A DNA stretch of 55,229 nt, taken from the NCBI RefSeq assembly GCF_003946335.1, contig NZ_RHNX01000021.1, positions 1 through 55,229 on the forward strand, read 5' to 3'. The notes under the pieces are model-generated. The model saw only the letters and a program-made list of their open reading frames with translations. It searched no databases and was not told the origin of the DNA. Both the position numbers and the translations under genes were made by a program. Shown here piece after piece: positions 6,215 to 55,092 of the stretch (the first letter of the stretch is position 1; each line of letters starts with the position of its first letter). The stretch is from Levilactobacillus fujinensis. Lineage in GTDB: Bacteria; Bacillota; Bacilli; Lactobacillales; Lactobacillaceae.

Positions 6215-6633
6215 AGAGAGTGGGATAAAAGGCGCTTAGCTGGCGAGCTGGAAGCCCGTCCTTTGGCTGGAAGCGTTCCCCACAGCCAGCGGAATCCCTG
6301 GCAGCCGGAGTGCGGCTGTTTTCACTAATTTAGCCGTAATAATTCCTACTGTCGCAAGAGCAACGTAAACAATTTGGCTTTCAACCTTCAAGTTATCAGT
6401 TTTAAGCGGAGTCAGCTGCCTTTTGTCCCACGTTTCAGCAACGTAAATTCGGAGATACCAAAAGAGCCTGGGGGTATCCCAGACTCTTTTATTTACGCCA
6501 TTATAATGTCGAAACGTGCGCCATAAGGCAGTTTGTTGCGCTTAACCCGATAGCAAAAATTATGCCAAAGTCAGGCATAATCCCTGCTATCACGTTAATA
6601 CTCGCAAACTAATCGCCTTATGTCCCACTCTCT
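6215..6633. repeat. Composite intergenic repeat bounded by 20-bp inverted repeats
   Basis: The gap between purH and the SDR gene is framed by AGAGAGTGGGATAAAAGGCG (6215-6234) and the inverted CGCCTTATGTCCCACTCTCT (6614-6633), 18 of 20 bases matching. Inside lies a module A copy (about 6238-6391) with CCCGTCCTTTGGCTGG, CCACAGCCAGCGGAATCCC and the end GGCTTTCAACCTTC. After it come a second inverted GCCTTTTGTCCCACGTTTC (about 6419-6437) and a terminator hairpin. The later part recurs in opposite orientation at 35319-35415. Confidence 0.7.
6460..6491. terminator. Bidirectional terminator hairpin within the repeat
   Basis: AAAAGAG-c-CTGGG pairs with CCCAG-a-CTCTTTT and is followed by TTATTT. It can terminate purH (plus) and the SDR gene (minus). 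A near copy ends the RelB/toxin unit at 35319-35347. Confidence 0.7.
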
Positions 6634-7712: not shown

Positions 7713-8726
7713 ATGATAACAACAACTTTGCCAAGTCTGACCATTGTGTCTCCATGCTATAACGAGGAACCCATGTTGCCAGCCAGTGCTCCTATTTTAC
7801 AGAATATTATGACGCACTTAATTCGCGACCATCAAATTGCAGAAAATAGTAAGATTCTCTTCGTTGACGATGGGAGCCAGGATAACACTTGGCAACTCAT
7901 TTGCGATTTACAACAGAAAGACCCGCTATTTACGGGTCTGCGCTTTAGCCGTAATTACGGGCAAGAGGCTGCCTTGATGGCTGGCATGCAAACGGCTCAC
8001 CGACATGCCGACCTGGTCATTACCATTGACGCTGACCTGCAAGACGACCCGACGTTGATTCCTGCCATGGTCGCGCAGGCCCAGCGCGGCTTCGATATCG
8101 TTTACGGCGTTCGTAATGACCGCTCGACCGATTCCTGGTTCAAACGAACCACCGCCAACGGCTTCTACTGGACGATGGGTAAGCTCGGCGTTAATCTCGT
8201 ACCGAATCATTCCGACTTTCGTTTACTGACTAAACGCGTCATCACCGCTCTCATGCAGTGTCATGAAAGCAAACCATTCCTGCGGGGAATTATTCCACAA
8301 TTGGGATTCCCGTCCACTAGACTCTACTATAAACGGCAGCCTCGTCAGGCCGGCGTCTCCAAGTACCCCCTAAATAAAATGTTGCGATTCGCGTTAGATG
8401 GCATCTTATCCTTTTCTATTGCCCCCATTCGTGCCGTGCTGTACGCGGGAACCGTTATTTGTGGCACTGCCCTCCTTATGTTGATTTGGATTCTGGTCCA
8501 ACACCTCCGTGGCGCCGTCATCACTGGCTGGAGCTCCATCATGGCTTCCCTATGGTTTCTCGGTGGTTTTCAGTTAATTGCTATCAGTATTATTGGTGAA
8601 TACGTTGGCCGGACCTTCACTGAAGTCAAACACCGGCCACGCTACATCGTTCAAACGGATACCTATTCTGCAACCTTTCATGTCTCGACCCCTGCATTGA
8701 CTTTGGCGCATCGCTCCGTTAAATGA
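7713..8726 (+). CDS. Family 2 glycosyltransferase, polyprenyl-phosphate sugar transferase type
   Basis: The protein resembles GtrB/DPM1-like enzymes that load a sugar from a nucleotide donor onto undecaprenyl phosphate at the cytoplasmic face. It has 337 residues. The GT2 fold shows VSPCYNEE near the N-terminus, FVDDGSQDNTW, FSRNYGQEAALMAG, the metal-binding TIDADLQDDP (DxD type), and RGIIPQLGFP. Two membrane helices (about residues 232-260 and 275-295) precede IIGEYVGRTFTEVKHRPRYIV, the usual end of this subgroup. The membrane glycosyltransferase 107 nt downstream would be the natural user of the lipid-linked sugar, giving a two-component system that decorates a wall polymer or lipoteichoic acid. 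That pairing is inference from order and family. Confidence 0.92.
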   Translation: MITTTLPSLTIVSPCYNEEPMLPASAPILQNIMTHLIRDHQIAENSKILFVDDGSQDNTWQLICDLQQKDPLFTGLRFSRNYGQEAALMAGMQTAHRHADLVITIDADLQDDPTLIPAMVAQAQRGFDIVYGVRNDRSTDSWFKRTTANGFYWTMGKLGVNLVPNHSDFRLLTKRVITALMQCHESKPFLRGIIPQLGFPSTRLYYKRQPRQAGVSKYPLNKMLRFALDGILSFSIAPIRAVLYAGTVICGTALLMLIWILVQHLRGAVITGWSSIMASLWFLGGFQLIAISIIGEYVGRTFTEVKHRPRYIVQTDTYSATFHVSTPALTLAHRSVK

Positions 8727-8816
8727 GGCGATGACTGGACTATGTCGCCTAGTTTAAATCTCAGTATTGCTGTTACAACAGTCATACTAGGTGTTTTAGA
8801 ACTTTCAATCTTTAGT
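8727..8816 (+). repeat. Intergenic repeat, right end of module B
   Basis: The segment GGCGATGACTGG, then CTCAGTATTGCTGTTACAAC, then GTGTTTTAGAACTTTCAATC aligns base for base with the right end of module B at 21560-21655. It fills the gap between the two glycosyltransferase genes, ending just before the AGGAGGAGG ribosome binding site of the second. Confidence 0.7.
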
Positions 8817-8833: not shown

Positions 8834-10903
8834 ATGTCCATTCGGCAGCACACCATGACCTTATTTGGGGGTCTGATTAGTATCACCCTTCTGCTTACGG
8901 GCGGACTGGCGCTCCTTTTCCCCGTCACGTTTCGGATCGACCATAATTGGCTGAGCCCCTTAGCAATTGCTTTAGGCACCGGCATCTATTTAGGCACCTT
9001 AGGCCTCAGCTTTCGCGCATTACACCGCATCAGTTCCCGTCAAAGTCAGTGGGTCGCCGTTGGCCTTTGGCTCCTGCTTTTGACCATTCAAGGCTGGGTT
9101 GCCGTCTCCTGGGTCGCAGCCCCACGTGCCGACCTCTACTTCGTTCATCAGCAAGCTCTAGATCTCCTCCACGGCAGTACCAGTTGGCCCGCCTATTTCC
9201 AAACGTATGCCAATAATGTCAGCTTTACCATTTTGCTCAGCGGCCTGTTGCGACTGGGTCAAGGCATCATCTCTAATTCTGGGGTCTGGCTCAACCTACT
9301 TCAGTTTATCTGGCTTGATTGTGGCCTTTTAGTGGTCTGGCTAGCGCTACGCAAACGAAATCCAGCCCGGGCCAACCTCTGGATCGGCATGCTAATCACC
9401 ACTGTTCCTCTGTACGCGTACGCGCTAAACGCTTATACCGACGTCTATGTTTTACCGTTCATGCTCTTTGCCATAGTCGCCTTTACCCAGCTTAAACGCA
9501 GTCTGCGAGGGCCCGCCATCTTCGGTTGGGCACTCCTCCTTGGTCTGTCACTAACAGGGGCTTACCTATTTAAGGCCAACTATATTGTATTGACCATTGC
9601 TGCCTTATTGTTGCTCTGGCTTATCCCTCTCGCCCATCCTCGTCACTGGCTGGTGCGACTGGGAACGACTGTATTGATCGTTGGTCTCTTATTTGCTGGG
9701 ATTGCTGGTAACCATAACCTCCAACAGGCTAACGGTTACCACCCTAATGCTGATCAAGCACTTCCTGCCATGAGCTGGGTTGCAATGAGTTGGAACCCCG
9801 CACACTACGGCGAATACAATCGTCAAGATGCCACCACGGTCATTCACCAGCCCACAGTAGCAGCTAAAAAAGAGACGGCCACAGGACTCTTACACGACCA
9901 TTTGCAACAGCTGGGACCCATCGGCATCTTAGGTCATCTTTTTCGCAAGGCCCGCCTCTTCCTCGCAACTGGCACGTTTGATGCCTTTCAAATCAACTCG
10001 GCATTTGATCGCGCCCCGCACTGGTATCGCCAGCACCGCAGCACAGCCGACTGGCTACTGGCCAATTGGTGTCAGGTCTCCTACCTGGCACTCATCTTGG
10101 TCAACCTGGGCTGGGGGATACAACAGTTACGGCGGCGCCACTTATCATCGGCCTACCTACTAGGTGGCATCTTTATGATGGGACTCGTTGCCTTTCACGT
10201 CGTCTTCTGGGAAACAGAGGAGCGCTACGCCCTACCACTACTCCTGCTCCTGTTAGCTGGTGCCGCGTCGGGTTACCGCCAGCCACGTAACTTGTTGCGC
10301 TGGTCACGTAACCGCCTGACTTGGTTACCACTCGCCATGGCGGGCGCTTTCACGCTTACTTTAGGGCTCGTCGCCTGGCAGAATAGTGCGTTGACCACCC
10401 ACCAGTGGGTTCAACCCTTAAATGCAGTTAGCCAAAACGAGGGCCGCTATTACCAAAATCATAAATTGGCGATTAAACCTCATCACGCCTTAAGTCAGCC
10501 CATTACAGCAACCATTGCTTTTAACAAAATCATCATCGACCGGGGTGAACAGATTACCGGTCATCTACGTTTAACGAATGCACAAGGCAAAGTTGTGTGG
10601 CGCTCTCAAGGGACCAAAACTCTGCTGGCACAATCCATTCCAGACCAACCAGCTGGTCGCTATACGTTGACCCTCACAAACCAAGGGACACACAATCTCC
10701 GAGTCGTCACGGCCCCGGCGACGTTCCCACTATTGCCTAAGTCCTTGTTGGGGCATCCCAATCAATATCTCCGGCTCACCGTCCAGCAATACCGCGTCGG
10801 CCCCATCCTCACACAGAATAAGTTCTGGCTCCTATTTGCCACGATTTGGTTAGGTGGCCTGCTTATCATCGATCGGTTTTACTGGTATCGCCGACAAATT
10901 TGA
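8834..10903 (+). CDS. Multi-membrane-spanning glycosyltransferase-like protein (GT-C type)
   Basis: A 689-residue integral membrane protein with about 11-12 predicted helices in the first 500 residues and a C-terminal extracytoplasmic beta-rich segment (about 525-660) before a final helix and the tail RFYWYRRQI. The first loop holds APRADLYFVHQQALDLL, with the acidic/aromatic character expected of the donor site in GT-C (GT39/ArnT/PMT-like) enzymes that use polyprenyl-phosphate sugars. Pairing with the GT2 gene immediately upstream supports a role in glycosylating a surface polymer or protein. Exact acceptor and sugar are unknown. The start has a strong AAGGAGGAGG ribosome binding site. Confidence 0.78.
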   Translation: MSIRQHTMTLFGGLISITLLLTGGLALLFPVTFRIDHNWLSPLAIALGTGIYLGTLGLSFRALHRISSRQSQWVAVGLWLLLLTIQGWVAVSWVAAPRADLYFVHQQALDLLHGSTSWPAYFQTYANNVSFTILLSGLLRLGQGIISNSGVWLNLLQFIWLDCGLLVVWLALRKRNPARANLWIGMLITTVPLYAYALNAYTDVYVLPFMLFAIVAFTQLKRSLRGPAIFGWALLLGLSLTGAYLFKANYIVLTIAALLLLWLIPLAHPRHWLVRLGTTVLIVGLLFAGIAGNHNLQQANGYHPNADQALPAMSWVAMSWNPAHYGEYNRQDATTVIHQPTVAAKKETATGLLHDHLQQLGPIGILGHLFRKARLFLATGTFDAFQINSAFDRAPHWYRQHRSTADWLLANWCQVSYLALILVNLGWGIQQLRRRHLSSAYLLGGIFMMGLVAFHVVFWETEERYALPLLLLLLAGAASGYRQPRNLLRWSRNRLTWLPLAMAGAFTLTLGLVAWQNSALTTHQWVQPLNAVSQNEGRYYQNHKLAIKPHHALSQPITATIAFNKIIIDRGEQITGHLRLTNAQGKVVWRSQGTKTLLAQSIPDQPAGRYTLTLTNQGTHNLRVVTAPATFPLLPKSLLGHPNQYLRLTVQQYRVGPILTQNKFWLLFATIWLGGLLIIDRFYWYRRQI

Positions 10904-13245: not shown

Positions 13246-13258
13246 AGAATAAATGGGT

Positions 13259-13412
13259 GGCTTTCAGGCGAACTGGCGGTCCGTCCTTTAGCTGGAGACG
13301 TTCCCCACAGCCAGCGGAATCCCTTGCAGTCGGAATGCGGTCATTGCCACTGATTAGTCGTGACAATTCCCACGCTCACAAGCGTATTTTGACTTTCACC
13401 CTTTAGCTTTAA
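13259..13412 (+). repeat. Intergenic repeat, module A copy
   Basis: Shows CTTTCAGGCGAACTGG, CCGTCCTTTAGCTGG, CCACAGCCAGCGGAATCCC and the end GACTTTCACCCTTTAGC, the shared right terminus with one change. It occupies most of the gap before the small membrane protein. Confidence 0.75.
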
Positions 13413-21311: not shown

Positions 21312-21490
21312 TAAAAAAGCTTAAAACAGCTGGTGTCGTCCCGATTGGACGCGTACCGGCTGTTTGTCTCTGTTCCTTTGTTAGCACTCATTTCACTTCC
21401 GCTGATTGCTTGGCAAGGTTTCATCGAACAAGCGGTGAACGACATTTTAATTTCGACCATCACCTTCTTTTGGCTGCGCAGTTACTTACA
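21312..21490 (+). pseudogene. Membrane-protein remnant abutting a repeat copy
   Basis: One plus-strand frame reads SSRLDAYRLFVSVPLLALIS, then LPLIAWQGFIEQAVNDILIS and TITFFWLRSYLQ, which looks like two membrane helices. It has no ribosome binding site and runs straight into the repeat that begins at 21491. It may be part of a small membrane protein gene disrupted by the repeat. I cannot name the family, and chance coding is possible. Confidence 0.35.
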
Positions 21491-21657
21491 AAAACCAAGC
21501 TTGGAGACTCGGTATTTTCGAGGCTTCAAGTTGTGTTCGCACCGATTCAGCCCATATCTGCCGGCCGGTAAGGCGATGGTTGGACAACGTTGCCTAATTT
21601 TAGACCCAGTATCGTTGTGACAACGGTCATAATGTGTGTTTTGGAACTTTCAACCTC
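21491..21657 (+). repeat. Intergenic repeat, right half of module B
   Basis: Aligns with the reverse complement of 37785-37950 with about a dozen differences over roughly 163 bases (counted by eye). It starts AAAACCAAGCTTGGAGACTC, includes CAGCCCATATCTGCCGGCCG and ends TTTTGGAACTTTCAACCTC. The small CGTTG-tga-CAACG hairpin near its end is kept in other copies. Confidence 0.85.
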
Positions 21658-37695: not shown

Positions 37696-37784
37696 CCCGT
37701 TACTCCTCTCTTCGTCTCGTCTCAATCCCTACGTTTTCCACCTTACCATATTCTAAAATTTTCCGCTTAACGTTGGGTTCTAAA

Positions 37785-38115
37785 GATTGAAAGTTCCAAA
37801 ACACACATTATGATCGTTGGCACAACGATATTGGGTCTAAGACTAGGCAACGTCGGCCAACCATCGCCTTACCGGCCGGCAGATATGGGCTGGAACGGTG
37901 CGAACACAACTTGAAGCCTCGAAAGGACCGAGTCTCCAAGCTTGGTTTTCTACTAAGCCAGCAGGAAACCCACCTGCCGACTAAGTAGAACGACGCGCCT
38001 GAGCCCATATCTGCCGACCTCTCGGCTGACCTAGTTGGTTTGAGGCGACATGAATCATGCCGCTAGGATCGCTGTTGAATTATGCTTAAACTTTAGCAAC
38101 CACTTGGAATTTAGT
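37785..38115 (-). repeat. Intergenic repeat, longest module B copy
   Basis: Reading on the minus strand, this copy runs from CCACTTGG...AAGTTTAAGCATAATTCAAC to the shared end TTTTGGAACTTTCAATC. It contains an 18-bp imperfect hairpin (TTCTACTAAGCCAGCAGG, 37956-37973, with CCTGCCGACTAAGTAGAA, 37981-37998) inside a larger inverted repeat CGGCAGATATGGGCT / AGCCCATATCTGCCG. The copy at 52665-52924 is the same element with about 105 bp deleted between those arms. Confidence 0.8.
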
Positions 38116-38139
38116 GATTGGAATTACCTGCACAATCAG

Positions 38140-38332
38140 AGCCGAAGGCAGCCAGGGATGGAGCTAGCCGTGTCAACGATGTTAGTCGGAGTTTTCCCGG
38201 CTTACATCGTGGGACGACCTGGGAGACGCCTGATCTTGGCGGCTTTCAGGCGAGCTGGAAGCCCGTCCTTTGGCTGGAAGCGTTCCCCACAGCAAGCGGA
38301 ATCCCTGGCAGCCGCAGTGCGACCAGCTCCCA
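38140..38332 (+). repeat. Intergenic repeat, module A core
   Basis: Contains the hairpin CGATGT-taGTCGG...CCGGCtt-ACATCG, then GGAGACGCCTGATCTTGGCG, CCCGTCCTTTGGCTGG and GCGGAATCCCTGGCAGCC. The usual right end is missing. It lies head to head with the module B copy. Confidence 0.8.
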
Positions 38333-38444
38333 GCCACTCTCAGGCCATAGATTCTGTGTATCACGCTACAAGCTTATTTTCACCCAAACTATCTTGAGAG
38401 GCCTATACTCTAACCTGTGATTAACATTGAAGGAGGAATTACTT

Positions 38445-41039: not shown

Positions 41040-41090
41040 TCTCTGCCAACATCTTACCAGGTAGTCAAATAGACTGGTTTTAGCTGCCCT

Positions 41091-41391
41091 GCTGAAGGTT
41101 GAAATTGACGGACACAATCGTATAATCGTATCCGGACGCCATCAGGGATGCAATTAGCCATGTCGACAATGTTAGTCGGGGGTCTCCAGCTTACATCGTG
41201 GGACGATCTGAGAGACACCTGAACTTGGTAGCTTTCAGTCGAATTGGAGGCCCGTCCTTTGGCTGGAGGCATTCTCCACCATAGCAAGTGGCGTCCCCGG
41301 CGGTTGGCGTGCGACTATTTTCACTAGTTTCACCGTGACAATTCCTACTGTCGTAAGAGTAACGCAAACATTTTGGCTTTCAACCTTTAGC
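41091..41391 (+). repeat. Best-bounded copy of the intergenic repeat, with terminal inverted repeats
   Basis: The left end GCTGAAGGTTGAAA (41091-41104) and right end TTTCAACCTTTAGC (41378-41391) are inverted repeats matching at 13 of 14 positions. Between them is a module A core (CGACAATGTTAGTCGG, CTTACATCGTGGGACG, CCCGTCCTTTGGCTGG) and a tail (TTCACTAGTTTCACCGTGAC, CCTACTGTCGTAAGAGTAAC). No reading frame of plausible protein exists inside. I see no clear target-site duplication. Confidence 0.85.
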
Positions 41392-41421
41392 TGAACTGTC
41401 TGATTTCGACTGCTAAATAAT

Positions 41422-41470
41422 AAACGCTAGAATTGTCTGCATTGACGGGGACAGTTCCTAGCGTTTTTTT
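41422..41470 (+). terminator. Terminator after the acetyltransferase gene
   Basis: AAACGCTAG-a-A-TTGTC pairs with GGACA-gTT-CCTAGCGTTT, with a T-run of seven. Confidence 0.85.
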
Positions 41471-41615
41471 CGTGACATGAAAAGCGATTACAGAAACCGA
41501 TTGCGTGAATCCACCACATCGTTGCTAAGCGAGCGAGAAGACTGAAGCGCCCCCACAGCAGACGAAATCCCTGGCAGCTGCAGTGCCAACACGCTTAACC
41601 AAGCTCGTCAGCTAC

Positions 41616-42699: not shown

Positions 42700-43580
42700 C
42701 CTCTCCCGCCATAAAAAGAAACCCTTTTTTCGAAATTGTTGCTTTTTTATTTACAATTAGCAACAAACGTTACCTTTATTGAACCCGTTCGGCTTTTTTC
42801 ATGTATTCTATGCGAAGAAAAGCCCTTTTAGTTAGTCCTAGTCTACCCTGATTATACCGCACCCACCGGCTCGCGCTATACCCCATTTTGAGTGAACTGG
42901 TAACAATCAAAAAATTATACAGATTGATTAATTGAGGGGATAAGAGTGTAAACCCACGCGCTGTTTTCATCAATAAACGTCTAGTCGTGTAATTATCCGC
43001 AAACGCTAATGTTATCGGCTATGGTCAGACTAAACTGGCTGGTATTAGCCTAGCATGTGAGCCGCCACTTTCACCAGATAATTTTTGTTCTCACGCTTCA
43101 CGTTCAAAGTTACTTTACCAACATCAAATTAATGGTTTGTCGTGCTAAAACATGCTTTCATTTTTCGGCTATCATCTGTAACTGCGTGTAAATTCGTCAA
43201 TTTATTGGACTCTCTTTGTTCACGGCCTGATAGTTAATTCGCCTTATTAACTGAAAATTTCTTTTCATAAAACCAAAAAAACCGGATTATTTATCAACAA
43301 GCCTCCCCCGATTTAGATTTCTCCTTTTTCGTTGGAATTTTGTTGCTACATAATCCAGGTGTTCATGTGTTATCAATATATAATTGTGTTCTGTGGTGCT
43401 GAGTCATCTCGTGCCGTAGTCCAATTCCTATCTACTTTGTACACCGAAGGCCCATCACACGCTACCTTTACTGTACACGCTTAACTTTCAGTCTCGTCTT
43501 TAGAGAAGCTATTCACTCTCCACTAACCGTAGCGGTCCTAAAAAGACAAGTGCATACTACCGTTGTCTCCATAAGCCATT
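42700..43580. other. Long gap with gene scraps
   Basis: About 0.9 kb without a convincing gene. The minus strand has a 65-codon frame at 42776-42973 (ARGFTLLSPQLINLYNFLIV) and a 27-codon frame near 43060-43140 (FDVGKVTLNVKRENKNYLVK then VAAHMLG and stop). Neither has a ribosome binding site. At 43438-43498 there is a degraded copy of the TGTACAGTAAAGG palindrome followed by AACTTTCAGTCTCG. Confidence 0.4.
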
Positions 43581-46495: not shown

Positions 46496-46704
46496 TGGGA
46501 GGCCTTTCCGACTTACATCGTGGAACGACCTGAGAGACGCGTAATCTTGGCATTTTTAGGCGAGCCGGCAGCCCGTTCTTTGGTTGGAGGCGTTCCTCAC
46601 AGCCAGCGGAATCCCTGGCAGCCGGCGTGCGACTGTTTCAACTACTTTAGCGGTGGCAACTCCTATTGTCGCAAGAACAACATAACCATTTTAACTTTCA
46701 GGCT
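46496..46704 (+). repeat. Intergenic repeat, module A copy
   Basis: Contains CTTACATCGTGGAACGACC, CCCGTTCTTTGGTTGGAGG, CCAGCGGAATCCCTGGCAGC and the tail CCTATTGTCGCAAGAACAAC ending TTTTAACTTTCAGG. Its left end is unclear. It fills most of the gap after the TetR gene. Confidence 0.75.
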
Positions 46705-46717
46705 TTCTTTAGAACCC

Positions 46718-48349: not shown

Positions 48350-48703
48350 CTAATCCTCCTCGGTTGTAATCTTTCCGGTGATCAAATCGTCAATAATTGG
48401 CTTAGCAAACTGCCAGGCCGTCGTATTTTCTGCAAGTAGCTCACGACCCGCATCGGTCACATGATAGTACTTGCGCCGGGACCCCTGTGTTTCATCGCCC
48501 CAATAGTCAGTCAACGCACCGTTCTTTTCCAGTCGGCGAAAGACCGTGTACAGCGTGGCTTCATTCAATTCATAGTGTCCTGCGCTGAGTTCCTTCACCC
48601 GCTTGGCCACCTGGTACCCGTAGCTATCCCCCTGTTGCAAGATATTCAAGATGATGGTATCCGTATGGCCCCGGATTAAATCTTTGGAAATAATCTCAGC
48701 CAT
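48350..48703 (-). CDS. PadR-family transcriptional regulator
   Basis: A 117-residue winged-helix repressor with the PadR core GHTDTIILNILQQGDSYGYQ, LNEATLYTVFRRLEKNGALT and GSRRKYYHVTDAGRELL. The C-terminal part is short, as in the PadR-s1 group. The ATG has AAAGGAAG 7 nt upstream. It is the first gene of the operon with the DUF4097 protein and likely autoregulates the pair. Confidence 0.93.
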   Translation of the reverse strand: MAEIISKDLIRGHTDTIILNILQQGDSYGYQVAKRVKELSAGHYELNEATLYTVFRRLEKNGALTDYWGDETQGSRRKYYHVTDAGRELLAENTTAWQFAKPIIDDLITGKITTEED

Positions 48704-48825
48704 GCTGCCACTTCCTTTCCTTTTCGATGGTCTTAATGTATCACATACTACTGTGTGTGTCAAAGTAATTTGTTCAGAATAGTATTTTAAAGTGTTAAGT
48801 ACGTTAAAAAACACGTCAGCAGTTC

Positions 48826-49046
48826 GCCTGCAGCTACCAGAATTACGCCTGTCATGGGGAACGCCTCCAGCCTGTGAAGCGGGCTTCCAGCTCGCATGGA
48901 AACTGCGCTCCCAGGGCGGCATCTCACGATACAGACTGGGGCCGAAGGTTGAAAGGTCTGAAATGTCCATCATGACCGTTGTCGCAACGATACTGATACT
49001 AAAATTAGGCAACGTTGTCCAACCATCGTCTTACCGGCCGCCTCCG
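48826..49046 (-). repeat. Intergenic repeat, module B end joined to a degraded module A
   Basis: On the minus strand, the B end runs from GGCCGGTAAGACGATGGTTG (49046) to GACCTTTCAACCTTC (48943), with CGTTGCGACAACG hairpin. A diverged module A (GAGCTGGAAGCCCG, GGCTGGAGGCGTTCCCC) follows in the same orientation. A further scrap (CCCCATAGCGAGTGACCCC) lies near 49123-49145. Confidence 0.65.
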
Positions 49047-49191
49047 GCTTTGGATAGTTTGTTAATCTGATATGCTTTGGAACTGGAACTGTTAGTGGAA
49101 ATTAGGCATGTAGCCGAACCGTCCCCATAGCGAGTGACCCCTGGCAACCGAAGTGCGGCATTTCTACATAATTTGCAATTTAGCCTACGAC

Positions 49192-52664: not shown

Positions 52665-52924
52665 GCTGAAGGTTGAAAGCCAAAATTTTTGCGTTACTCT
52701 TGCGACAGTAAGAACTATCACGGCCAAATTAGTGAATCCCAAGTGGCTGCTAAAGTTTAAGCATAATTCAACAGCGTTCCTAGCGGCATGATCCATGTCA
52801 CCTCAGACTAACTAGGTCAGCCGAGAGGTCGGCAGATATGGGCTCAGGTGCGTCATTCTACTAAGCCAGCCCATATCTGCTGGCCGGTAAGACGATGGTT
52901 GGACAACATTGCCTAATTTTAGTT
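52665..52924 (+). repeat. Intergenic repeat, left end plus shortened module B
   Basis: Starts with the terminal repeat GCTGAAGGTTGAAA, carries the inverted tail (GCGTTACTCTTGCGACAG, CACGGCCAAATTAGTGAA), then module B (CTGCTAAAGTTTAAGCATAA, CAGCCGAGAGGTCGGCAG) and stops at GCCTAATTTTAG. Compared with 37785-38115 it lacks about 105 bp between the AGCCCATATCTG arms. The following bases to about 53060 may encode a scrap (TTVFATKAREDGRGPLCDSL). Confidence 0.8.
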
Positions 52925-53992: not shown

Positions 53993-54913
53993 TTAAAATT
54001 TACCAGCAACTAATTTTGATGCCAGAACCCAGCCCTTGTTGGTAACCAAGAGGTACTGAACGTTCTTCTTGCTCTGCTTAACTGTGATCTTCTTGGTTGC
54101 ATAGTAAGTCTTGCCAGCAGCCAAAGTCCCCTTCTTAGTCAACGTCACCTTAGGTTGGTCAGCGGCAAATTTGCCGGTGAAGTAAGCTGGCTTCGTTCCC
54201 TTGAAGTGAAAAGCGGTCTTCTTGATGTTAACGGCCTTTGCTAAAGTATAAGTCTTACCCTTAACAGCCGCTTTCTTAGTGGTTGCCTTTTTGGCAGTGG
54301 CTTTCTTAGCCGTCGTCTTAGTCGTTACTTTCTTAGCAACGGCCTTCTTGGCTACAGTCTTCTTAGCAACAGCTTTCTTAGCTACTGTCTTCTTAGCAGT
54401 CGTCTTTTTAGCCGTTGTCTTAGCAGTCGCAGTTACCTTGGTCCCCGCCTTGACAGCATCAGCAGTCTTCGTAACAGCATTCTTGCCATCAGCCGCCATG
54501 AACTTGCCGGCGGTCAACTGGGATAACTTAGCCCAGCCAGAAGTTTTACCGCTCTTGACGAAGACTAAAGTTTCGCTCTTAGCCTTGGCCGTCTTGGTTG
54601 CCTTGGTTTTGATAACGATCTGCTTGGTTGCGTAGTAGGTCTTTTCGCCAGCTAACGTCCCCTTCTTAGTTAAGCTGACCGTTGACTTGTCTGCCGCAAA
54701 CAGTGCACTAAACAGTTCTGGTTTGCCACTCTTAACGTGGTAAGCAGCCTTTTTGACAGCTTTGCTGCTAGCCAACGTGTAGGTGACCTTCTTGGCAGCT
54801 GACTTAGTCGCCGCGAAAGCAGTAACTTCGGCATTAGCGGGAGCAATAGCTCCTAAACCTAATGGTAATACCATAGCTGCCGCAGCCGCGATCATTGCAA
54901 CTTTTTTCATCAT
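53993..54913 (-). CDS. Secreted protein: two SLAP-like modules joined by a histone-H1-like linker
   Basis: A 306-residue exported protein, with a signal peptide (MMKKVAMIAAAAAMVLPLGL, cleaved near ANAEV). Two similar modules, about 70-85 residues each, lie at the two ends: YTLASSKAVKKAAYHVKSGK...KKGTLAGEKTYYATKQIVIK and YTLAKAVNIKKTAFHFKGTK...KKGTLAAGKTYYATKKITVK. Between them lie about 60 residues made of K, A, T and V (AKKTVAKKAVAKK repeats), like the tail of histone H1. The net charge is strongly positive, so binding to teichoic acid or DNA at the wall is plausible. The ATG at 54913 is chosen; earlier in-frame codons add a non-signal-like stretch. Confidence 0.85.
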   Translation of the reverse strand: MMKKVAMIAAAAAMVLPLGLGAIAPANAEVTAFAATKSAAKKVTYTLASSKAVKKAAYHVKSGKPELFSALFAADKSTVSLTKKGTLAGEKTYYATKQIVIKTKATKTAKAKSETLVFVKSGKTSGWAKLSQLTAGKFMAADGKNAVTKTADAVKAGTKVTATAKTTAKKTTAKKTVAKKAVAKKTVAKKAVAKKVTTKTTAKKATAKKATTKKAAVKGKTYTLAKAVNIKKTAFHFKGTKPAYFTGKFAADQPKVTLTKKGTLAAGKTYYATKKITVKQSKKNVQYLLVTNKGWVLASKLVAGKF

Positions 54914-55092
54914 AACAATTACCCCCCAGTAGATTGTGTTGCTTGAATTCATCTTGAATTCATTGTCATAATACCACGCTACTTTTTTTTAGCCAGTCAA
55001 TAACCCTTGAATCGCTCAGTTTTGCGTAAATAAATCTAATCGAAGTGTAAATTCAGCCAACTTACGTTGAGGGGCCTTATTGGTGAAGAAAC

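Follow-up and report, generated by a model that had tools for sequence, protein, structure and literature searches.

A probable MITE family of Levilactobacillus with IS4-related ends and a twin structured, RNA-like body

The window considered here, i.e., the whole 55,229-nucleotide stretch of DNA that was analyzed, contains at positions 41092–41390 (+) a copy, shortened by internal deletion, of an element 621 bp in length, delimited by profile, consensus and terminus searches. The left terminal inverted repeat of this copy, CTGAAGGTTGAAAT, occupies 41092–41105 (+), and the right one occupies 41377–41390 (−), where CTAAAGGTTGAAAG is read on the minus strand. The two termini, CTGAAGGTTGAAAT and CTTTCAACCTTTAG, agree at 12 of 14 positions (13 of 15 counting a leading G), rather than at the 13 of 14 given in the preliminary description. 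The left terminus is joined to approximately position 337 of the element, from which the copy continues to position 620, with loss of approximately positions 15–336; the retained half includes a B-type structured module at 41123–41306 (+; 109.7 bits with the covariance model R1, see below). The 621-bp consensus was obtained from a profile of nine full copies, drawn from 13 long copies aligned on one strand, and has the ends CTRAAGGTTGAAAG...CTTTCAACCTTYAG. The unit is approximately 615–645 bp in length, lacks a transposase, and carries the 14-bp sequence CTRAAGGTTGAAAG at both ends as terminal inverted repeats. The 41092 copy is itself nested in the remains of an older, divergent copy (41040–41090 and 41391–41591), which three relatives keep in whole or in part. 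An 18-bp stem with a very different sequence closes the A module of that older copy.

The profile of full copies yields 14 matches at ten places in the window, 58 to 546 bp each. The most nearly complete copy lies at 37782–38325 (+), spans positions 3–548 with the right end lost, and contains an A-type module at 37870–38034 (−; 54.9 bits at E 3.9e-11 when scored with a model derived solely from B modules) and a B-type module at 38133–38317 (+; 194.3 bits). Left-end fragments were found by the same profile at 8724–8813 (−; positions 3–92), 21490–21657 (−; positions 4–171) and 48943–49040 (+; positions 2–99), and right-end fragments at 6232–6390 (+; positions 462–620) and 13254–13405 (+; positions 459–620). 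The remaining pieces are a right-half fragment at 46497–46705 (+; positions 409–618), a B-module fragment at 48813–48938 (−; positions 421–549), a degraded fragment at 1983–2148 (+; positions 13–108 and 446–517) and a rearranged copy at 52667–52923 (−; positions 620–552, 334–198 and 114–57). As judged by eye against the list of open reading frames, the pieces had been correctly placed between genes except for one, 48813–48938, which extends into the upstream portion of the ORF at 48350–49012; short ORFs also occur inside some copies. The view that no credible protein lies inside the element was borne out, the longest stop-to-stop frame being 74 codons in 41092–41390, 83 codons in a full copy and 77 codons in a full copy of a related genome, G030, and two ORFs (115 and 100 aa) overlapping the 37782 copy matched no Pfam family. 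An ORF at 8834–10903 (689 aa), beginning approximately 20 bp past a left-end fragment, had no Pfam match at E up to 0.001. Elsewhere in the window, imperfect internal repeats (families D6 and D7) occupy 54086–54700 within an ORF at 53993–54952.

The ends of the element recur far more often than expected. Allowing up to two mismatches, the terminus GCTRAAGGTTGAAAG occurs eight times in the window as compared to 0.24 expected, and none of 100 shuffles reached eight, which confirms that the repeat family noticed earlier is real. Inverted termini lie at 6378, 8802, 13393 and 41377. The orientations assigned previously stand in part: the termini at 8802 and 13393 are inverted as described, but those at 37779 and 48941 are plus-strand left ends and not inverted ones, and the terminus at 21657 has decayed too far to match the pattern, yet fits the element profile. 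In the Levilactobacillus genome from which the window derives, a search for CTRAAGGTTGAAAG with up to one mismatch gave 142 occurrences, as compared to two for the reversed control. This genome holds dozens of copies of the element, and BLAST queries with 41070–41400 and 37780–38340 returned at least 43 and at least 52 matching stretches (40 of 161 and 40 of 286 candidates scored, respectively), counts of stretches rather than of copies, as one copy may yield two. Variants with internal deletions of either half are present elsewhere in the genome (e.g., positions 2–369 joined to 533–620), in keeping with the expectation for a MITE. Exact termini were detected in 23 of 35 genomes of the genus, the count per genome ranging from 0 to 83 (83 in G030) and a control match being found in none of the 35; this variation among species genomes supports a non-autonomous mobile element. 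One 894-bp two-ended copy (L051:999–1892; G000:C10:4724–5617) has a perfect 7-bp duplication, TAAATTA, and approximately 350 bp of other DNA within module B, with GATTCC on both sides. This insert looks like a captured host fragment; no source for it was found among the loci compared.

Target duplications were assessed in two sets of two-ended copies. The first comprised 25 copies (21 from the window's genome and 4 from relatives), 18 of which (15 and 3) had both termini at 11 or more of 14 positions and were used. Identity of the 7-bp flanks was 0.556, as compared to 0.340 (SD 0.042) with shuffled partners; 5 of the 18 duplications were perfect, all five of them in the window's genome, and with the boundaries used no other length from 5 to 9 bp did as well. 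In the second set (16 two-ended copies of G030 and 2 of G015), 7-base agreement was 0.690 versus 0.357 (SD 0.040) for shuffled partners, and duplications were perfect at 7, 8 and 9 bp in 6, 4 and 1 copies, i.e., in 11 of 18 overall. These values lie 5 and 8 standard deviations over control in the two sets. The element generates 7–8-bp target duplications, and the presence of two-ended copies with such duplications indicates that the family has transposed. A perfect duplication is lacking at the 41091 copy (TGCCCTG versus CTGAACT), where CTGCCCTG and CTGAACTG match at six of eight positions. The preliminary description had proposed looking for sites occupied in one strain and empty in another; occupancy differs between species, but a clean empty site was found at none of three aligned sites. 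At the 41091 site, the older divergent copy is present, wholly or partly, in three relatives, with a junction shifted by approximately 20 bp; at two sites on contig C8, occupancy varies among species and the flanks have changed.

The unseen transposase with matching ends postulated at the outset has a counterpart in L. koreensis (G018, probably strain JCM 16448), in the form of an IS4-family insertion sequence (locus L296). This insertion sequence is 1559 bp in length, has CTAAAGGTTGAAAG at both ends, identical to the element termini at 14 of 14 positions, and is flanked on both sides by the 8-bp duplication CTGATTAA. It contains a frame of 488 codons without a stop, with the first Met at codon 39, in which Pfam DDE domains and a YREK signature, YARRWQIEGYFKVAK, at residue 367 (Y-(2)-R-(3)-E-(6)-K) are recognizable, and which matches NCBIfam IS4_4 (NF049925) over residues 54–486 with 469.9 bits (cut-off 250). 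Judged by these features, the L. koreensis insertion sequence looks intact. Members of the ISPepr1 subgroup of the IS4 family are, according to Table 1 of “IS4 family goes genomic” (PMC2266710), 1500–1600 bp in length with ends of the form YT-AA-YTT---A and duplications of 7–8 bp, and the same survey notes an apparent preference for AT-rich targets. The L. koreensis insertion sequence resembles this subgroup in its length of 1559 bp, its 5′-CT ends, its 8-bp duplication and its YREK signature, and eight of the nine conserved end positions fit CTAAAGGTTGAAA, with G at position 7 where Table 1 has Y (PMC2266710). By size, duplication and signature, it would be placed close to the ISPepr1 subgroup.

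Examination of ten termini without an element body, those near contig ends being left out, led to internally deleted copies of the insertion sequence in G012 and G026, which retain a transposase C terminus bearing YARRWQIEGYFK. A 104-aa query from the transposase C terminus matched 10 of the 35 genus genomes and gave no candidates in the window's genome (a draft of 103 contigs). The window does contain a remnant of an end of the IS4-family element at 1898–1976 (89.9% identity over 79 columns, E 8e-20, versus the L. koreensis insertion sequence) and an older, degraded remnant of the same end at 43416–43490 (72%, E 3.5e-5). The shared ends and the length of the duplications make it most likely that the element was moved in trans by an IS4 transposase of the L. 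koreensis type, which would bind the shared ends and mobilize the element by cut-and-paste. We infer that this partner is dead or absent in the window's own species, where the copies would have been left as fossils decaying by internal deletion. Mobilization in trans of a non-autonomous element, as first suggested, is favored by matching termini, 7–8-bp duplications, internal-deletion variants and an insertion sequence with identical 14-bp ends.

Other candidates for an autonomous element were rejected. Terminus pairs 0.65–5 kb apart with a duplication amounted, among the loci compared, to three rows representing two elements, neither with a visible transposase. Terminus pairs of 3.9 and 5.9 kb in G030 enclose ordinary genes, the six longest frames encoding a response regulator, a histidine kinase, an acetyltransferase, an adenylosuccinate synthetase, a GMP-reductase-type protein and an adenylosuccinate lyase. 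Apart from these candidates, a 224-bp terminus pair (L243:1501–1724; G007:C17), the right part of which is an end of the IS4 element, is an ordinary internally deleted insertion sequence. A second IS4-family element of 1562 bp, with the related ends CTGAAACTTGAAAG, is present in G010 and G019 (loci L298 and L301).

The body of the element consists of two homologous structured modules of approximately 190 nt in inverted order, A (approximately positions 93–246) and B (positions 361–541). R1, a covariance model for which only B modules (35 of them) were used, picks up A modules on the opposite strand, e.g., that at 37870–38034 noted above, which establishes the modules as homologous and inverted; a sequence profile of A alone does not detect B. 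What the preliminary description called mosaic modules is this inverted, homologous pair. In the alignment of B modules, 95.4% of cells are paired, as compared to 82.8% in shuffles and 31–40% with partners slid, and 31 of 46 pairs have changed on both sides; none of 500 shuffles reached any of five measures. Base pairing of the modules is kept by compensatory change. On the strand read outward from the center, G-U outnumbers C-A by 76 to 23 (23.6 to 10.0 upon down-weighting of relatives), a count somewhat favored by the structure having been predicted on that same strand and of a kind that single-stranded DNA would also give; with larger sets and pairs common to both strands, the ratios are 54 to 15 and 125 to 71. 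Candidate promoters within the element were unconvincing, with two and one promoter-like sites in two copies as compared to 0.4 and 0.3 expected. A search of the window against Rfam 15 returned, at gathering score, a single T-box and nothing on the element. With more permissive thresholds (E up to 5 for L032 and L035, and up to 1 for another seven loci), no match fell on any module. The T-box leader lies at 1530–1736 on the minus strand (104.5 bits).

Divergent pairing of the modules is the rule. Among neighboring modules less than 1 kb apart in 80 named loci (107 modules, i.e., 125 matches minus 18 antisense ones on stronger matches), 27 pairs are divergent, 9 same-direction and none convergent. 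A further 29 loci, with antisense matches left out and pairs read by hand from the table, gave 14 divergent, 1 same-direction and 0 convergent pairs; seven divergent pairs of this set come from outside the genus. In L. wangkuiensis, L. mulengensis and L. lanxiensis, two or three modules follow one another in the same direction, approximately 60–110 bp apart (L157:2523–3189, L156:2580–3001 and L195:14574–15052). The consensus elements of two species, G000 (the window's genome) and G030, share all 28 terminal bases and, within module B, 144 of 179, versus 35 of 78 in the left arm, 39 of 99 in the center and 32 of 66 in the right arm (39–48%); by plain alignment, module A agrees at 85 of 154 bases. 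The twin, and above all module B, is kept while the rest of the mobile unit drifts.

A DNA search matched 34 of the 35 genus genomes (the window's own included) and none of 23 genomes from other families of the order. Model R1 extends further, to at least 76 of 301 genomes and at least 10 of 40 genera of the family, with up to 163 bits outside the genus; these are lower bounds, as eight candidates were scored per genome under stricter filters. An order-wide draw gave matches in 12 of 295 genomes, all in the same family. R1 matches the window's own genome at least 96 times with E of 1e-3 or lower, 150 out of 988 candidates having been scored. Named loci with modules belong to Levilactobacillus, to entries recorded as Lactobacillus sp. 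(L167 and L171), Lactiplantibacillus (three species) and Lapidilactobacillus mulanensis, and a weak match was seen in Schleiferilactobacillus perolens. The alternative raised earlier of a spreading structured RNA gains support from very strong covariation together with the occurrence of modules in 10 of the 40 genera sampled. Termini are patchier than modules. In G003, strong modules are present but not a single exact terminus. Of the 27 divergent pairs from named loci outside the window's genome, none is flanked by both termini (11 or more of 14 positions) within 250 bp, and three are flanked by one. Modules so often without termini imply that a transposase of the L. koreensis type does not account for the spread of all modules. 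Blastn searches of plasmid and phage collections gave no match to the element.

This distribution is the starting point of the best-surviving alternative, in which the element is primarily a dispersed structured RNA with a function for the host (e.g., 3′-UTR or terminator-like), the twin having been captured between IS4 ends only in some lineages and the MITE being a late passenger arrangement. Beyond the many termini-free modules across the family, the alternative draws on modules at orthologous sites. The divergent pair at the site of 48907–49113 is also present in L. andaensis and L. koreensis, and in its two modules eight double changes keep pairing and none break it, with eight single changes breaking a pair. 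Over 31 module pairs matched by position (some modules being in two pairs, and some matches of the L. wangkuiensis group being doubtful), 66 double changes keep pairing as compared to three that break it. However, 45 single changes break a pair in these 31 as compared to 23 saved by G-U. The 16 pairs of the three better-supported groups (L. andaensis/koreensis, yonginensis/tongjiangensis and humaensis) gave 17 double changes that keep and 2 that break pairing, with 13 single changes saved by G-U and 25 breaking a pair. At a locus of L. yonginensis, all six modules align to L. tongjiangensis with 94.1% identity overall, versus 90.0% for other aligned DNA, which counts in favor of this alternative; across six species comparisons, however, module identity is above that of other aligned DNA in two and below it in four. 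The in-place pairing data thus speak against free decay, and strong constraint everywhere is not clearly supported. Gene conversion is a possible alternative explanation.

The distance of modules to genes also counts in favor of this alternative: the outer module edge is 10–35 bp away from a neighboring stop codon in 21 of 54 cases, but never (0 of 34) that close to the 5′ end of a gene (custom ORF calls, with orthologous sites counted more than once). Gene pairs with modules are tandem, convergent and divergent in 39, 16 and 9 cases, and those without in 133, 42 and 53, only a mild shift; both comparisons used 106 modules at 21 loci, with L198 left out and custom ORF calls. A primarily host-borne RNA is harder to reconcile with the G000 and G030 families, both bounded by terminal inverted repeats and both retaining the twin while losing similarity elsewhere, so that, in these two families at least, the modules are part of the mobile unit. 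Terminus counts also differ widely between genomes, and many of the window's copies are fragmentary. We therefore regard an origin as host RNA as a real but minority prospect.

The conserved fold may instead act as DNA: a hairpin, a cruciform, or a single DNA strand in the course of transposition. The arrangement of inverted, paired units in intergenic DNA is reminiscent of BIMEs, and a gyrase or IHF-type site has been proposed for REP/BIME pairs. Both strands of one full copy also fold well, with minimum free energy z-scores of −5.96 and −8.40 (20 shuffles each). However, a multi-helix junction of approximately 190 nt is far from the 20–40-bp REP, and the bias of G-U over C-A on one strand requires a strand-specific structure, with the proviso that G-T is milder than A-C in DNA. 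A role of the fold as DNA is accordingly considered unlikely. Least of all is to be expected of copying by gene conversion or recombination alone, with chance termini and no transposable element: some orthologous sites are common to species and rearranged copies exist (52667–52923), but the reading is contradicted by the excess of target duplications noted above (5 and 8 standard deviations), by an IS4-family element with identical termini and an open transposase frame, and by terminus counts far over controls, and its probability is very small.

Taken as a whole, the data are explained with high probability by a Levilactobacillus MITE family with IS4-related ends and a twin structured, RNA-like body. 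In the mechanism proposed for this family, the structured strand would be RNA read outward from the center, such that any transcript running through the element, from whichever side, would end in one correctly oriented folded module. This arrangement could render the element tolerable beside genes whichever way it is inserted, and the pair of modules might serve in shielding of mRNA 3′ ends or in insulation. A further-reaching proposal, put forward tentatively and with the odds somewhat against it, is that the divergent twin represents a new structured RNA class of Lactobacillaceae, ancient, present in high copy number and host-maintained, which would act in cis, in both orientations, at the 3′ ends of genes and would have been repeatedly dispersed between IS4 (ISPepr1-type) ends. 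If so, a functional RNA and a selfish element would be one unit. Bacterial MITEs are usually viewed as dead deletion derivatives of insertion sequences, and their folded transcripts may or may not matter. Here the fold is kept in mobile families and, apparently, at fixed sites between species, and the likely insertion sequence partner together with a covarying cargo makes it directly testable whether the structured RNA is a price of mobility, a host benefit, or both. The family is structured yet not recognized by Rfam release 15 in the loci tested, and the element provides a genome-plasticity marker for this genus of food bacteria.

In comparison with known systems, the element has several attributes of MITEs: it is short, multi-copy and without a transposase gene, with terminal inverted repeats, target duplications and ends common to an autonomous insertion sequence. 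Among other small repeats, BOX is modular and structured, though we know of no settled account of how it is mobilized, and inverted pairing of units is a feature of BIMEs. QMITE2 of Coxiella is described as a short, non-coding, intergenic element with terminal inverted repeats, 7–9-bp duplications and a stable predicted transcript fold (PMC10969869). The element studied here resembles such bacterial MITEs in being short, non-coding and intergenic with terminal inverted repeats and duplications, but differs from QMITE2 as portrayed there in consisting of two homologous modules with strong covariation that are also found without MITE ends and in other genera (PMC10969869). For Bacillus cereus, bcr1–bcr3 are reported to be MITE-like and often part of UTRs, and bcr10 and bcr18 to have conserved secondary structures suggestive of functional RNA (PMC3446304). 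The likeness to bcr1–bcr18 is one of description only, and the portion of that report available to us describes no divergent twin (PMC3446304). BOX, RUP and SPRITE are small interspersed repeats of Streptococcus pneumoniae, likened to the present element by description only and differing in that a partner insertion sequence has been identified here (PMC3049150). REP and BIME sequences are likewise structured repeats in many copies (PMC3733652), in which the REP is a 20–40-bp palindrome, as compared to the multi-helix module of approximately 190 nt and the IS4-type partner of the present element. A search of open-license literature on lactobacilli with MITEs or such RNAs gave no paper on the element among the matches listed. 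As far as these literature and database searches show, the MITE family is a new one of a known kind, and its twin covarying body is unusual.
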